DNA from: Ignavibacteria bacterium | GTDB taxonomy: Bacteria; Bacteroidota; Ignavibacteria; Kapaibacteriales; UBA2268 | Assembly (NCBI GenBank): GCA_012522895.1 | Contig: JAAYJM010000067.1 | Span: forward strand, 1-33,806 | DNA: 33,806 bases | Direction of reading: 5' to 3' | Shown: positions 5,279 to 27,094 of the stretch, piece after piece | How positions within the stretch are numbered: position 1 is the stretch's first letter | Layout: the number at the start of each line of letters is the position of its first letter | Notes under the pieces: model-generated | What the model was told of the DNA's origin: nothing | Database searches by the model: none | What the model saw: the letters and a program-made list of their open reading frames with translations, nothing else | Position numbers and translations under genes: made by a program

Positions 5279-6163
5279 ATGGCAAAAATATTATATTGCA
5301 AAGAAATTGCTGAAACAATAAAACAAGAAATTAAGCAAAATACTGAAAAACTTATTGCTGAAAAAGGAATTAGACCGGGCTTAGCGATCCTGCTTGTTGG
5401 AAATGACCCAGGCTCAAAGGCTTATGTAAATTCCAAAGAAAGAACTTGCAAAGAGCTTGGCTTTCATTCACTTATTAGAAGGGAAGAAGAAAATTTTTCC
5501 GAAGAAGAAGTAATAAAACTTGTTAAAACCTGGAACGAAGATGACTCCATACACGGAATACTTGTTCAGCTCCCGCTTCCAAAGCATATTAACGAACGAA
5601 AAGTAATAGAGACTATACTTCCTCGAAAAGACGTTGACGGCTTCCATCCAGAAAATGTTGGACGTTTAGTGATTGGATTGGATAGCTTTGTTCCTTGCAC
5701 CCCAGCTGGAATTATTGAGCTTATTCGAAGAGAAAAAATTGAGACAAAAGGAAAACACGTTGTGGTGGCTGGTCGTAGTAATATTGTCGGCAAGCCCATA
5801 GCAAATTTACTTTTGCAAAAAAAAGAAAATGCAAATGCGATTGTTACAATTTGCCATACTGCTGCAAAGGATTTAAAACAATATACGCGTCAAGCAGATA
5901 TACTGATTGCTGCAATGGGGGCGCCTGAGCTTATTGATTCCGACTATTTAAAAGATGACGTGGTCATTATTGACGTTGGTTACAATCGCGTTGAAGACAA
6001 AAAAGAAGCGAAGGGCTATAGAATTGCTGGCGATGTGCATTTCGAAGATGCAAAAGCAAAAGCAGCTGCCATCACGCCCGTTCCAGGCGGAGTCGGACTT
6101 ATGACTATTGCTATGCTTATGTTGAACACTTTAAAAGCTGCAGCTGGTGAAATCCAATTTTAA
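5279..6163 (+). CDS. folD: Methylenetetrahydrofolate dehydrogenase / cyclohydrolase
   Basis: This 294-aa bifunctional cytoplasmic enzyme oxidises 5,10-methylene-THF to methenyl-THF with NAD(P)+ and hydrolyses that to 10-formyl-THF, for purine and formyl-Met synthesis. Visible motifs are YVNSKERTCKELG with the catalytic lysine (about residue 55), GILVQLPLPKHI, DVDGFHPENVGRL, CTPAGIIELI, the dinucleotide-binding VAGRSNIVGKPIANLL (about 165-180) and the C-terminal ITPVPGGVGLMTIAML. Length is normal. The ATG at 5279 follows the ribosome site GAAAGGA. It overlaps the next gene by 17 bases, which suggests translational coupling. With gcvPA upstream it forms a one-carbon metabolism pair, although a repeat array separates them. 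Confidence 0.97.
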   Translation: MAKILYCKEIAETIKQEIKQNTEKLIAEKGIRPGLAILLVGNDPGSKAYVNSKERTCKELGFHSLIRREEENFSEEEVIKLVKTWNEDDSIHGILVQLPLPKHINERKVIETILPRKDVDGFHPENVGRLVIGLDSFVPCTPAGIIELIRREKIETKGKHVVVAGRSNIVGKPIANLLLQKKENANAIVTICHTAAKDLKQYTRQADILIAAMGAPELIDSDYLKDDVVIIDVGYNRVEDKKEAKGYRIAGDVHFEDAKAKAAAITPVPGGVGLMTIAMLMLNTLKAAAGEIQF

Positions 6164-6902
6164 AAGTTTTTCCGAACTTGAACTAATTTTTGAGGACGAA
6201 AGCATTATTGTGCTTAATAAACCAGCTGGACTTTTAAGCATCCCTGAGCGCTTCGACAAGTCAGCAAGTAATTTATTTAGCATTTTAAAAAAGCAATTTG
6301 GAACTATACTGACTGTGCATCGTTTGGATAGGGACACAAGCGGAGTTATCATATTTGCAAAAAATGCTGAGTCACACTCGAATTTGAACACTCAGTTTGA
6401 AAAAAGAGAAGTTAAAAAGATTTATCATTGCCTAATTGCTGGGAGTTTTAATAAAGAAAACCTGCTTGTGGACATCCCTTTAATGCCAGACCCAGCGCGG
6501 AAAGGAGTGATGATTCCATCTGCTCGAGGCAAAGAATCACTTACGGAAATAAAATTATTAGAAAAATTTACGCGGGCGTCCTTAATAGAAGTAAATCTTA
6601 TAACAGGGCGCCAGCATCAGATTAGAGCGCATTGCGCCGCAATAGGTTATCCGCTCTTAGTCGATGGAATATACGGCAGAAGTAAAGATTTTTATCTTTC
6701 TTCAATAAAAAAGCGATACAATTTAAAAAAGGGCGATGAAGAAAAGCCCATCATATCAAGAATCACAATGCACGCAAACTCCATCGAATTCACGCATCCC
6801 GAAACAAAAAATAAAATGAGCTTTCAAGCTGCTTACCCCAAAGACTTTTTAGCACTGCTCCAAGTTTTACGGAAATACGCAAGCATAAGGGATTGGTTTT
6901 AG
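6147..6902 (+). CDS. RluA-family RNA pseudouridine synthase
   Basis: This 251-aa protein starts with GTG at 6147 inside the end of folD. RluA enzymes isomerise specific uridines in rRNA or tRNA to pseudouridine. The catalytic motif is plain: TVHRLDRDTSGVIIFAKN, with the active-site Asp in RLDRDTSG (about residue 61). Also present are IIVLNKPAGLLSIP near the N-terminus, the family's KIYHCLIAG segment and the GRQHQIRAHCAAIGYPL motif at about 152-170. There is no N-terminal S4 domain, so it belongs to the short RluA/RluC-like group. The target uridine cannot be told from sequence. The overlap with folD makes it the last gene of that operon. The region to 7052 holds only a weak GAGTAT/ATACTC hairpin (6937-6959). 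Confidence 0.92.
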   Translation: MKSNFKSFSELELIFEDESIIVLNKPAGLLSIPERFDKSASNLFSILKKQFGTILTVHRLDRDTSGVIIFAKNAESHSNLNTQFEKREVKKIYHCLIAGSFNKENLLVDIPLMPDPARKGVMIPSARGKESLTEIKLLEKFTRASLIEVNLITGRQHQIRAHCAAIGYPLLVDGIYGRSKDFYLSSIKKRYNLKKGDEEKPIISRITMHANSIEFTHPETKNKMSFQAAYPKDFLALLQVLRKYASIRDWF

Positions 6903-7052: not shown

Positions 7053-8249
7053 TTAGCAGCCACCTACTATTCTCTTCTGTGTTTTTTTAACTGCGCCAGA
7101 GGGCTTGCTTTCCTTAATTAATAGCGGCAACCTTTGGCTTGCTCTAAAACGGAAGCGGTAAATGTCTTTTTCCGAAACATCATTAGAAGCAAGCGCTGAG
7201 GCTGGAGCAAAATCAAGTATGGATTTTTGAAACTCTGCAAAACCGCCCTTTAAAACTCTAATGTTTTTAAAGCCAAGTTCTTTTGCTATATAGCCAATTC
7301 GTTTAGCTTCCAATTCATCGCTTCCAATCAAAATGTTCTTTTTGTGTCGCAAATGCAATAGTTTGCTTGGCTCTTTCTCAAAAAGATTTTCGATAGTAAA
7401 CAAAGTTGACTTTGGCAATGGCTGTTTTTCATATTCTTCTGAACTGCGAAAATCAAATATTTGTATTCTTTTGTCATCACTCATCAAGCGGCAAGAAAGC
7501 TCGTCAACGCTTATATAATCAAGTTCATAGCTTTGCAAAATACTTTGGTTATTCGATTCTTTTAAAAGAGATTCTTTTTTATTTGGGAAGAAAAAGGCAG
7601 AAATCGCAAGAGCAAAGCCGACAACGGCAATACTGATGTAATAAGGTGTAAATCGGATTGCTGGCTCTTTTATTCCGTTTGCTTTGTTTTCAATAATTGA
7701 AACAAAAAAGAAAGCAAAAAGAGCTATCAAAACAAAAAGAAAGGCAAACAAAGATTGCGATATTCCAAGCATAGAGAATAGTTGCGGGTTTCCCAAGTTT
7801 TGAGCAAAGTATAGCTCTTCCCAAAGAGGATATGTTTCAGCAAAAATAAGAACTCCAAGGTATGCCCCGATCACAAAAACTATTGCATCAATTTTTCCAA
7901 TTGCAGCAGCACAAACGCTCGTTCCGGGACAAAAACCTCCAATCACAAAGCCCAAACCCATAATTAAACCGCCAACTATTGCAGATGTTAAAAACGTAGG
8001 ATTTATGTAAATTAGGTTCATATCGAGCAAGCCGAAATGAGCAAGTGCAATCACTCCGACCATAGCAGTAACGCCAGCAGTGAAAAACACGCGAAGCACC
8101 GTGAAGTCATAGCCATAAAAAAGCCCTACCAACTTTTTCGATGTGGAAAAGCCCGCCTGCTCTAATATCATTCCGAACAGAATCCCAATGACGAGAGCAA
8201 CTATGAAATTCAAATCATTTCCAATAATATCTGGCACAAGTGGTCCCAT
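7053..8249 (-). CDS. YeeE/YedE sulfur transporter fused to a degenerate rhodanese domain
   Basis: This is a 398-aa membrane protein. The ATG at 8249 is preferred over an upstream TTG at 8264 because GAAAGGC is spaced about 7 bases before the ATG. Residues about 10-205 are hydrophobic, with 6 or so membrane segments and the family motifs GFSTSKK, GGFCPGTSVCAAAIGKID and GAYLGVLIFAE. In characterised YeeE, conserved cysteines relay thiosulfate into the cell. After a last membrane segment, about residues 240-345 form a rhodanese-like domain (ISVDEL, IQIFDFRSSEEYEKQ, FKNIRVLKGGFAEF). At the active-site loop, where catalytic rhodaneses have a Cys, the sequence reads NILIGSDELEAKR, so sulfur transfer by the usual route is unlikely. 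It follows the other YeeE half with no gap and probably forms the transporter with it. Confidence 0.88.
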   Translation of the reverse strand: MGPLVPDIIGNDLNFIVALVIGILFGMILEQAGFSTSKKLVGLFYGYDFTVLRVFFTAGVTAMVGVIALAHFGLLDMNLIYINPTFLTSAIVGGLIMGLGFVIGGFCPGTSVCAAAIGKIDAIVFVIGAYLGVLIFAETYPLWEELYFAQNLGNPQLFSMLGISQSLFAFLFVLIALFAFFFVSIIENKANGIKEPAIRFTPYYISIAVVGFALAISAFFFPNKKESLLKESNNQSILQSYELDYISVDELSCRLMSDDKRIQIFDFRSSEEYEKQPLPKSTLFTIENLFEKEPSKLLHLRHKKNILIGSDELEAKRIGYIAKELGFKNIRVLKGGFAEFQKSILDFAPASALASNDVSEKDIYRFRFRASQRLPLLIKESKPSGAVKKTQKRIVGGC

Positions 8250-8264
8250 TTTTTTGCCTTTCAA

Positions 8265-8780
8265 TTAAATCCAGAATTTTCTAAAAAAATACGCAAAGCT
8301 GTATGCAGCGCCAAAAATGGCAAACATAGTGATAATACCTCCTGCCGACATAACCGCAAGTCCGCTGAGAGCAGAGCCGCTTGTGCAACCTCTGCCGAGC
8401 TGAGAGCCAATCCCCCAAAGTATACCTCCAATCACAGCGGCTGCAATGCGGGTTTTTGAGCTTACTCGCGGTCCTTTTTCTAATTTCCAAGTTAAGCGTC
8501 CAGACATCATTCCGGAAATAAAGGCGCCAATTATAACGCCCACAACCTCGAATACTAGCCAGTTTTTTAGCGGACTGCCTTCGTGTTCTTTGGAATAATC
8601 CGCATAGAATTTGGAATTTTCTGCGTGGGCTGGGGCAACAGATTCGACAGTCGCCACAGCAGCACTTTTAAATGCCCCGCTTGCGCCAAGGCCTCGTCCT
8701 GTTATGTATATAGTTGTAAGCAGGAGCAGTCCAAGCAGCAGCCCAGCATAATAGGGGTTCATATATTTTGTGTTTTCCAT
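8265..8780 (-). CDS. YeeE/YedE-family sulfur transporter, first half
   Basis: This 171-aa membrane protein has hydrophobic segments near residues 10-27, 70-90, 108-127 and 140-160. The signature LGRGCTSGSALSGLAVMSAGG (about residues 125-145) carries the conserved cysteine of the YeeE/YedE (Sulf_transp) family, known for thiosulfate uptake in characterised members. Its size matches the short partners that occur in pairs in bacteria. Its stop codon abuts the next transporter gene, so the two are cotranscribed and likely assemble together. The ATG at 8780 lies inside the scrap ORF at 8759-8977, so its original ribosome site may have been disturbed by whatever inserted upstream. No strong Shine-Dalgarno sequence is seen. 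Confidence 0.9.
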   Translation of the reverse strand: MENTKYMNPYYAGLLLGLLLLTTIYITGRGLGASGAFKSAAVATVESVAPAHAENSKFYADYSKEHEGSPLKNWLVFEVVGVIIGAFISGMMSGRLTWKLEKGPRVSSKTRIAAAVIGGILWGIGSQLGRGCTSGSALSGLAVMSAGGIITMFAIFGAAYSFAYFFRKFWI

Positions 8781-22030: not shown

Positions 22031-22639
22031 TTAGCTTTTTGTAACAATGAATTCGCCGTAATCATCGCCGCATTCTATTCCTTTCACCTGCTCGCACTTA
22101 AAAGCACTAATTCTATCTCCTTCGTTAGAGCTGCTGTATTCACCGGCATAAGCTAATGCCATAAAAGCAGCTGAAACGCCTCTTATCATGTAAGCGCTCA
22201 TTTTTTTGGACTTTCCATATTTTGCTACGTCAGACTCATAATAATTATATGCACGCACCACCATTTTCTCCCCTGGAACAAGCTCAATCACTTCAGCGTT
22301 AGCCCAGCCCCAAGCAGTAAACACAGCATAAGCTCCATAAAGAATATCTTCTGGCGCTTTTTCAATCATTGGAACAACAATTCTCTTCCATTCTTCAGAA
22401 GTAATGATTCCATAGCCAGTGTGATAGCCACACTCTTGAGCTGCATTTACCAGCAAATATTCAGTTGCCTCAAGCATTTCTGGACTTGCTTTCGTTGAGA
22501 GCCGTTCAGCAAAAGAATTCCAAAAAGCCGCCGGAAGCCTATTCACCATTACATTAAAACCTTCGATAATGCCTTCTTCGTTGCTTTCCGCACTAACTTT
22601 AGACATTTCTTCAATGATTTTCTTTCTATCTATAGCCAT
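22031..22639 (-). CDS. V4R-domain protein, paralogue A
   Basis: This 202-aa soluble protein is the third gene of a tight cluster. The C-terminal half fits the V4R (4-vinyl reductase) domain: GWANAEVIELVPGEKMVVRA, then a Tyr/Glu-rich strand, SAYMIRGVSAAFMALAYAG, and finally FKCEQVKGIECGDDYGEFIV, which keeps the E/C-x-x-GDD-x-x-EF ending of V4R. V4R domains bind small molecules in bacteriochlorophyll reductase BchJ and in aromatic-sensing regulators such as PoxR. No DNA-binding or catalytic domain is attached here. The N-terminal half (residues 1-95) is helical and holds the Cys/His motif ECGYHTG. The ribosome site AAAGGAG is strong. The 174-aa neighbour shares the same pattern, so the two may form a heterodimer. 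Function unknown. Confidence 0.7.
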   Translation of the reverse strand: MAIDRKKIIEEMSKVSAESNEEGIIEGFNVMVNRLPAAFWNSFAERLSTKASPEMLEATEYLLVNAAQECGYHTGYGIITSEEWKRIVVPMIEKAPEDILYGAYAVFTAWGWANAEVIELVPGEKMVVRAYNYYESDVAKYGKSKKMSAYMIRGVSAAFMALAYAGEYSSSNEGDRISAFKCEQVKGIECGDDYGEFIVTKS

Positions 22640-22652
22640 AATAACTCTCCTT

Positions 22653-23177
22653 TTAATGAATAACTTTAAAAATTGAAACTTTGTTCCCCATTACAATGCT
22701 TTGAGTTTCAATGGCTTTGTAATAGTGAGTTGGTTTGTCGAAAATTGCAGAAAAGATGGCACAAATGAAGCCGCCAGTAATATAATTAACTGGCTTATCA
22801 TAATTGCCCCATTTTCTTCTCCAGCCAGCGTCAATGTGGGAAACAGGCAGTTCAACCTCACCTGAGTCTTCACCAGCAAAATTCACAATCAATTGCCCAA
22901 GTCCTAACACAGAATAGTATTCAGAAACAATATCAATTCTGTCTTCTAATCTGCAAATTTGGTGCTTTTTAAAATAATCAATAATTGTTCTATAAAAAGT
23001 TTCCTCAGCAACATCGCTTAGCAGCTTTGTTTCGTCAGCATCGAGAGCGAGCTGAGAATAAAGCGCTGCATAGTGATGGCAGTGAAGCACAGTTTGTTCA
23101 CCATTCAAAAAGTGTCTTTTGTTTTTTGCATCGAAATAGTTTTCGATAATAAACTCTGGTTTTAATACTCTGCTCAT
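22653..23177 (-). CDS. V4R-domain protein, paralogue B
   Basis: This 174-aa soluble protein lies 13 bases upstream of paralogue A. After an N-terminal region with the conspicuous LHCHHYAALYSQLAL (about residues 31-45), a V4R-like half follows: LGLGQLIVNFAGEDSGEVEL, SHIDAGWRRKWGNYDKPVN, YITGGFICAIFSAIFDKP and ETQSIVMGNKVSIFKVIH. These segments align in order with those of paralogue A, but the cysteines usual in V4R (before the Gly-rich helix and in the last strand) are absent. HCHHY could bind a metal or haem, which is inference only. The ribosome site TAGGAG is clear. Its enzymatic or regulatory role is unknown. Confidence 0.68.
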   Translation of the reverse strand: MSRVLKPEFIIENYFDAKNKRHFLNGEQTVLHCHHYAALYSQLALDADETKLLSDVAEETFYRTIIDYFKKHQICRLEDRIDIVSEYYSVLGLGQLIVNFAGEDSGEVELPVSHIDAGWRRKWGNYDKPVNYITGGFICAIFSAIFDKPTHYYKAIETQSIVMGNKVSIFKVIH

Positions 23178-23185
23178 AAATTCTC

Positions 23186-23365
23186 CTAATTTTCTTTTTT
23201 AATTTCGTTCAACGCATTTTGAAATAAAGCAACATTCTCGGGGGTATCAGGCACAGTTGCAGCTTGAGAAGATGGAGTTTTTGTTAAAACTGCCATTCTC
23301 ATTTGAGCTTTGAGTCCGCCAATTCTCTTTGCTTCCTCGCAAATTTGGACTAATTTTGCTCCCAT
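23186..23365 (-). CDS. 59-aa protein heading the V4R cluster
   Basis: This small soluble protein starts MGAKLVQICEEAKRIGGLKA. The ATG at 23365 is chosen because AAAGGA is spaced about 8 bases before it; a TTG two codons upstream lies too close. The first 30 residues form a predicted helix, a Thr/Pro/Ser-rich linker follows (TKTPSSQAATVPDTPEN), and a second helix ends the protein. It lies 8 bases upstream of paralogue B with a good ribosome site, so it is expressed with the two V4R proteins and may be a small subunit or adaptor. I do not recognise the family. Confidence 0.65.
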   Translation of the reverse strand: MGAKLVQICEEAKRIGGLKAQMRMAVLTKTPSSQAATVPDTPENVALFQNALNEIKKEN

Positions 23366-23488
23366 ATTCAATTCCTTTTACATTGTTTAAAAACACAATT
23401 TACGTAATTGCAATATAATAAATTTATATAAATCATCTATAAAGTATAGAATTTTTTCGCTATGCAATTAAACAGATTTTTCTTACAG

Positions 23489-25990: not shown

Positions 25991-27094
25991 CTATATTTTA
26001 TTATAAAAAAGGGAAAAAGTAATTGTGGTTCCCTCGCCTTCTTTGCTTTCTATAAGAAATTTGCCCCCGTGAATCTCTACTATCTTTTTGGCAATAACAA
26101 GTCCTAACCCTACTCCCTGCTGCTCGTGCATAGCTCTTTCAAATTGGGCAAGGGCTGCAATTCCATTTATTTGATCTTTTGTCATCCCTCGTCCTTCATC
26201 TGTGATGGAAATACAAAGGTGGCTATCTTCAATAAATGTTCTTATAGACACTTTTTTAGATTGGTTGGAAAATTTAAAAGCATTGTCAATTAGTTCATCA
26301 AAAACTTTGTGGAAGTTTTCAGTAGAAATCTCAACGGAAATTTTATCCACCATATCGTCTATAAAAAGATCGTCAACTCTCTTGTATTGGTCAGCTTTTA
26401 GGTATGCGATATCCACAACCATTGCAACAGGTTCCTCAGTTCGCATAGCTCTCATCTGCTTTATTTTTACGGGGTCAGCGGCAAGCGATTCCAACATTAC
26501 ATAAGTGAGAAAGTTTTCCGTTATTTTAAGCAATCGATTAGAAGAAAAGATAATGTCGCCCGCAAATTCCACAATTTCAGAAGAGCTAATTTGCTCCGCA
26601 GTAGACTTTAAATATTTGGCAGTCCCTATTACTTCATTCAAAACGGTTCTAAATTCGTGTGGAAGAGCATAAGTAACATTTCTCCCGACCTCCTCGACTT
26701 TTTCTTTTACTTGTTGTGCAAATAATTGATGTTTATTCCATTGGGCGTCAATAGCATTTACAAGCTCCTCCCTTGTGTATGGCTTCACTATAAAGTCATC
26801 GGCTCCCTTTTCCATTCCCTTTCGCTGCTCGGATTTTTCAGTAAAAGCAGTAAGAAAAATAAACGGGATTGTCGCTGTTTGAGCATTAGCTCGGATTGTA
26901 GTTAAAACCTCGTATCCATCGACTTCTGGCATTGATATATCGCAAAGTATTAAGTCTGGCAACTCTTGAAACGCAAGCTCAATACCTTTTCTGCCATTAT
27001 CAGCTGTTTTAATATCATAGCCCTCGAATTTTAAAATTGTCGCTGTTGTCTCTAATATAAACTCTGCATCATCAATTACTAATATTTTTTTCAT
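25991..27094 (-). CDS. Receiver-histidine kinase protein (REC-HisKA-HATPase)
   Basis: This 367-aa cytoplasmic signalling protein has its domains in REC-kinase order. Residues 1-118 are a receiver with Asp8/Asp9, phospho-acceptor Asp52 (LILCDISMPEVDG), Thr82 and Lys104 (IVKPYT). About 135-200 is the dimerisation helix pair with the phospho-acceptor His146 in ALPHEFRTVLNE. Residues 245-365 form the HATPase domain with N-box VFDELIDNAFKFS, G1 DEGRGMT and G2 GVGLGLVIAKKIVEIHGG. There is no membrane segment or sensor domain, so input probably comes through phosphorylation of its receiver by another kinase. The solute-binding lipoprotein lies 66 bases upstream on the same strand and may share the transcript. 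No Shine-Dalgarno sequence is seen. Confidence 0.9.
   Translation of the reverse strand: MKKILVIDDAEFILETTATILKFEGYDIKTADNGRKGIELAFQELPDLILCDISMPEVDGYEVLTTIRANAQTATIPFIFLTAFTEKSEQRKGMEKGADDFIVKPYTREELVNAIDAQWNKHQLFAQQVKEKVEEVGRNVTYALPHEFRTVLNEVIGTAKYLKSTAEQISSSEIVEFAGDIIFSSNRLLKITENFLTYVMLESLAADPVKIKQMRAMRTEEPVAMVVDIAYLKADQYKRVDDLFIDDMVDKISVEISTENFHKVFDELIDNAFKFSNQSKKVSIRTFIEDSHLCISITDEGRGMTKDQINGIAALAQFERAMHEQQGVGLGLVIAKKIVEIHGGKFLIESKEGEGTTITFSLFYNKI

Follow-up and report, generated by a model that had tools for sequence, protein, structure and literature searches.

Three tightly packed genes in the genome of an Ignavibacteria bacterium raise the question of what two stand-alone proteins and a 59-aa companion do together when each escapes the usual family models. 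The genes, here called A, B, and C, lie within a 33,806-nucleotide stretch of one contig (the window). They are read in the 5'-to-3' order C-B-A, with gaps of 8 bases (C/B) and 13 bases (B/A), and a purine-rich ribosome site precedes each of them; direct reading thus confirmed the spacing and ribosome sites described in an earlier, sequence-only reading of this DNA. The features of the locus are the following.

23186..23365, minus strand: gene C, 59 aa from ATG, proposed connector, without a Pfam or NCBIfam family
22653..23177, minus strand: gene B, 174 aa, predicted V4R fold, invariant HCHH (open reading frame, AF2 model, Foldseek)
22031..22639, minus strand: gene A, 202 aa, predicted V4R fold, invariant CGYHTG region (open reading frame, AF2 model, Foldseek, profiles)
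23371..23379, minus strand: ribosome site of C, AAAGGAA (read from sequence)
23181..23187, minus strand: ribosome site of B, AGGAGAA, which overlaps the stop codon of C (read from sequence)
22645..22652, minus strand: ribosome site of A, AAGGAGAG (read from sequence)
21982-21952, minus strand: intrinsic-terminator-like hairpin 3' of A, 12-pair stem and T-run (pattern match only)

The trio is probably one transcription unit, given the short gaps, the hairpin after A, and the space of about 200 bases between C and the end of an upstream oligopeptide-type transporter gene (assigned by eye). The terminator-like site is weak when taken alone, as one was found versus 1.7 expected in shuffles. Beyond the hairpin, the next gene after A encodes a metallo-hydrolase (by eye), which was dropped as a partner because it lies behind the terminator-like site and is not a conserved neighbor. 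A YeeE/YedE-type sulfur transporter split over two genes, one with a C-terminal rhodanese domain (positions 7053-8780 of the window), was likewise dropped, being 13 kb distant. At 25991-27094, on the same strand and 2.6 kb upstream of the trio, with a transporter gene between, is a gene for a protein of 367 aa in which a receiver domain precedes a histidine kinase core. No Rfam elements were found in the trio region.

The sequence-only reading had proposed that A and B are paralogues of V4R, a small-molecule-binding domain, without attached effectors. Searched as single sequences, A, B, and C gave nothing useful in Pfam and NCBIfam, V4R (PF02830) included, and neither did A and B against PDB sequences or profile searches of PDB sequences; the Pfam V4R model had no match in the bacterium's own genome. 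Relatives were more informative. Two genomes (G389 and G329) encode natural B-A fusions, single proteins of about 430 aa (L004 and L005), whose B halves pass the Pfam V4R cut-off of 31 bits with scores of 35.8 and 39.5. A profile search of 297 genomes from the phylum of G411 yielded a deeply diverged clade in which B and A are paired in the same way, and of 20 distant proteins (A, B, and single V4R proteins), 18 match Pfam V4R with an E value of 0.01 or better. Full-length profile matches join the window families to this clade (E = 2.5e-37 for B and 2.1e-47 for A). The window A and B families match each other at 89% probability (E = 2e-6) over 59 C-terminal columns, in keeping with the similarity of C-terminal halves claimed earlier, and the distant A and B families do so over 167 columns (E = 4.6e-17). 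The AF2 model of B (pLDDT, 91.9) resembles the phenol-sensing domains of PoxR, MopR, and DmpR in Foldseek (E about 5e-8; TM score, 0.77); that of A (pLDDT, 81.5) matches TRAPPC3 and MopR more weakly than B matches its hits (E about 1e-3; probability, 1.00). The three pairs of A/B stretches aligned in the sequence-only reading occupy corresponding elements in the predicted structures of the two proteins. Because fusions and distant relatives match Pfam, profiles join the families, and predicted structures agree, we conclude from these comparisons that A and B are homologous, diverged V4R-fold proteins; both the V4R relationship and the mutual match were found. The two proteins stand alone, with no fused sigma-54 activator or kinase.

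Scanning bacterial genomes with A gave 22 loci, in nearly all of which the match covers most of A at 53-72% identity. Their labels include Ignavibacteriales, Coatesbacteria, Deltaproteobacteria, Phycisphaerae, Bacteroidetes (among them the isolate Aureispira sp. CCB-QB1), Oligoflexia, Fibrobacteria, Peptococcaceae, KSB1, Caldithrix, Zixiibacteriota, and Spirochaetia, and named bacterial groups number at least 11 among the close loci. In each of the 23 intact close loci (the window, L003, L006-L023, L025, L026, and L049), B and A are immediate neighbors; this set leaves aside L024, whose sequence begins within A at the end of its contig. In 21 of the 23, C comes before B, and no C was found in L026 and L049; a C-B-A order kept in so many loci from many phyla places the arrangement far beyond chance, and the co-occurrence with the 59-aa gene on which the sequence-only reading depended is conserved along with the gene order. 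All that is left of the trio in L027 is a relic of A at 5969-6232, which covers the first ~44 residues and has chemoreceptors on one side and CheA on the other. Rows of the A tree are not grouped by phylum. Vertical inheritance of A within phyla was rejected, since taxonomic labels on the tree are no more clustered than in shuffles, a comparison limited by MAG binning errors and small groups. The simple reading is that A moved laterally between phyla, which MAG bins and the method used make a suggestion and not a proof. There was no match to A in plasmids and none to B in phages.

HCHH is invariant in close homologues of B, where a Ser-His...Gly-Trp...Lys-Trp-Gly stretch is also kept, and the Cys of ECGYHTG is invariant in close homologues of A; the His-Cys of B and this Cys of A are invariant in the distant clade and the fusions too. 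The distinct Cys/His sets attributed earlier to the two proteins thus held up in these parts, whereas homologues of A do not consistently keep the Cys of GIECGDD. Conservation of A is unusually high (53-73% identity between phyla), a level compatible with a fixed ligand and with an enzyme alike. In the phenol sensors PoxR, MopR, and DmpR, the phenol hydroxyl is anchored by His and Trp. Zinc is held in such sensors by three Cys and one Glu (PMC10715001), and the Cys/His sets of A and B are not this site, because the window clade has lost it: the Cys-Glu-Cys-Cys ligands are missing from both window subunits and their close homologues. Distant relatives retain the matching positions C142, E168, C171, and C179 (alignment A5). 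"Most" V4R domains keep glycine pairs (G-x3-G) in helices 2 and 5 (PMC2253512); in A, helix 2 has the invariant G71 and G75, and helix 5 keeps a single Gly (G154), and in B, helix 2 keeps no Gly, and helix 5 keeps one (G136).

Gene neighborhoods go beyond the sequence-only reading and point to signal transduction and to a cysteine-desulfurase pair. Genes for MCP, CheW, or CheA flank the module in 8 of the 23 intact close loci (L007, L008, L013, L015, L016, L019, L021, and L026) as well as in the relic L027. In L007, CheW comes before the module and an MCP after it; in L021, two MCPs come before it and CheA after. At a generous chance rate of 6%, 8 of 22 loci corresponds to a binomial probability near 2.5e-5, a figure that serves as a guide, given the non-independence of the rows. 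Hydropathy shows two membrane segments without an intervening domain in the MCPs of L008, L019, and L026 and in the first of L021. CheW was detected in 21 of 26 genomes searched, all carriers of the module or the fusion, including the window's own genome. PAS histidine kinases lie directly 3' of the distant B-A pairs of L050 and L054-L057 (three of these five were Pfam-scanned), and in L049 a response regulator-DUF4388-Roadblock protein directly precedes B-A. Downstream of the module in L020 (5384-5761), L022 (6670-7050), and L049 (8836-9207) are 123- to 126-aa proteins that appear roadblock-like by eye and have no significant match in Pfam. Part of the distant clade (L050, L052, and L053) has a cobalamin-adenosyltransferase-like gene adjoining the B-A pair, and in L052 methyltransferase-like genes are also near (all by eye); these neighbors hint at a different ligand in that part of the clade.

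Homologues of C recur in comparable company. In L068 (6404-7324) and L069 (6984-7788), a stand-alone XylR_N-V4R protein is directly followed by a C homologue, which is a two-gene form of the module. A C-type small protein forms the N-terminal domain of GAF proteins in L071 (6366-7256) and L072 (7111-7872), and in L083 a C homologue adjoins a response regulator-DUF4388 protein.

On balance, we lean toward the explanation that A and B make up a stand-alone, cytosolic, heteromeric V4R sensor, with C as a connector, that signals in trans. The two proteins would pair as subunits of one sensor, and the A-B unit would bind a small ligand or cofactor, in which the invariant residues described above (HCHH in B, Cys in A) are probably involved. 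C would couple the V4R sensors to an output, and the signal would pass in trans to a module provided by the host. In many bacteria this module would be chemoreceptors and CheA; the distant clade would use PAS histidine kinases, and others response-regulator/DUF4388 proteins. A sensor is favored because A, B, and C have signal input in common: V4R and GAF are sensory domains, and the genes found nearby encode chemoreceptors, kinases, and receiver proteins. For V4R domains in general, binding of hydrophobic ligands and signaling in cis or in trans have been proposed (PMC2253512). Several observations count against a sensor: 15 of the 23 intact loci are without an adjacent chemosensory gene, the C-B-A unit of the window contains no signaling gene, no CheW match was obtained in G389, G329, G407, G410, and G412, and the desulfurase pair is no rarer a neighbor than chemoreceptors. 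For this trio, the chemotaxis link is one that we infer from relatives, the window being without a linked output partner.

That desulfurase pair underlies the main and serious rival, which is less favored than a sensor and holds a distinctly smaller share of the probability. Under it, A, B, and C would be a small heteromeric enzyme or cofactor carrier that handles sulfur (or selenium) with a desulfurase/lyase and a ~95-aa partner, and the chemotaxis neighbors would be secondary. It keeps its place because of the pair itself and the strong conservation of A. A desulfurase-like enzyme adjoins the module in 15 of the 23 intact loci, and an unnamed family of ~95-aa proteins does so in 17. The Aureispira desulfurase is assigned to TIGR01977 (391.5 bits; cut-off, 377), a family linked to selenium use elsewhere (PMC2276186), and the distant B-A pair of L059 is followed by another desulfurase-like gene. 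The invariant Cys and His residues of A and B would suit catalysis of this kind, and there is a V4R-like precedent in ATC hydrolase, reported as related to V4R, which cleaves a C-S bond (PMC5847659). The ~95-aa family has conserved EDCFDGS and RPFFK stretches and no match in Pfam or NCBIfam; the following are members.

L007:3323-3613
L009:8174-8452
G000:C1:13133-13414
L084:4831-5133

The association has exceptions, however. No desulfurase lies beside the module in the group formed by L015, L016, L017, L019, and L021, and in the window's own genome, which was covered by searches and extracted stretches, the desulfurase and ~95-aa genes are both present but are linked neither to the trio nor to one another. 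Members of the ~95-aa family also turn up in relatives that gave no match to A, in one case with a hypB-like and a hypF-like gene on either side. Moreover, those V4R relatives whose function is known sense ligands, and many loci have kinases or chemoreceptors alongside. A tie between the own-genome ~95-aa gene and chemotaxis through its cheA-cheW-cheR-cheB contig was also considered and rejected, since the gene directly follows serS and the cluster is about 8 kb off. The frequent presence of the desulfurase and the ~95-aa protein suggests, as a weaker inference, a sulfur-derived ligand or cofactor.

Even with the sensory role granted, A and B could be two independent V4R homodimers that share an operon and have separate ligands and partners. 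Both the V4R sensor MopR (PMC10715001) and a Thorarchaeal TRAPPC3 (PMC10933270) are homodimers, but we regard this arrangement as improbable for A and B, which keep the B-A order in every intact locus, occur in the same pairing in the deeply diverged clade, and are fused in L004 and L005. An A-B heteromeric complex is plausible on these genomic grounds, because adjacency is fixed and fusions exist. Within TRAPP, moreover, V4R-fold subunits form heterodimers. Least probable is a TRAPP-like membrane-trafficking or polarity module, in which V4R heterodimers would act with roadblock/longin proteins and not as a ligand sensor: TRAPPC3 is the best match of A, a Roadblock domain lies beside the L049 module, and small proteins of L020 and L022 look roadblock-like (by eye only), yet the neighborhoods of the module showed no small GTPase, its partners are more often kinases and MCPs, and B is closest to phenol sensors.

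Within the preferred reading of a heteromeric V4R sensor signaling in trans, a more ambitious version can be drawn, which we put forward as a speculation that is rather unlikely to hold in full. The module would be a widespread and laterally spread, obligate V4R heterodimer of TRAPP-like build with a dedicated connector peptide, serving as a detachable cytosolic receptor for sensorless chemoreceptors and reading a sulfur-derived ligand that a dedicated desulfurase and the new ~95-aa partner would produce or load. The V4R fold is known; the company that A, B, and C keep, with chemoreceptors and kinases, is the new part. In the open-access literature, we found no description of a V4R sensor divided into two paired proteins and accompanied by a small one, nor of V4R proteins beside chemoreceptors, sensorless or otherwise. 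As none of the three proteins convincingly matches Pfam or NCBIfam, routine annotation misses the module. Two separate, diverged V4R subunits kept together with a small companion in many phyla, in several cases beside sensorless chemoreceptors, would be a general plug-in input for bacterial signaling.

V4R sensors are known as fused input domains and homodimers. With the XylR_N-V4R domains of PoxR, MopR, and DmpR, the trio has in common the predicted fold (B strongly and A more weakly) and, as proposed, a sensory role, and distant A and B relatives keep Cys, Glu, Cys, and Cys positions like their zinc ligands. Those domains are homodimeric and fused to sigma-54 activators or kinases; the trio, in contrast, has its two diverged V4R-fold proteins encoded by separate genes, together with a small companion, and the window clade no longer has the zinc residues. 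Stand-alone prokaryotic V4R proteins (MJ1460, COG1719) are effectorless like A and B, and B matches 2osd/2oso, but these are single proteins, for which no paired subunit or small companion was found described in the papers searched. The EF2568-type cysteine desulfurase/selenocysteine lyase family (TIGR01977) is a common neighbor and not part of the window trio. A parallel in architecture is the TRAPP core, in which Bet3/TRAPPC3 and TRAPPC5/C6 are V4R-fold paralogues that pair as heterodimers and of which TRAPPC3 is the best structural match of A. The zinc site is reported lost in mouse TRAPPC3 (PMC10933270), which parallels its loss in the window clade. TRAPP is a eukaryotic Rab exchange factor, whereas the trio has no GTPase in view, and its A-B pairing is one that we infer; if the two subunits do pair, they would be a prokaryotic case of a paired V4R arrangement otherwise known from TRAPP.
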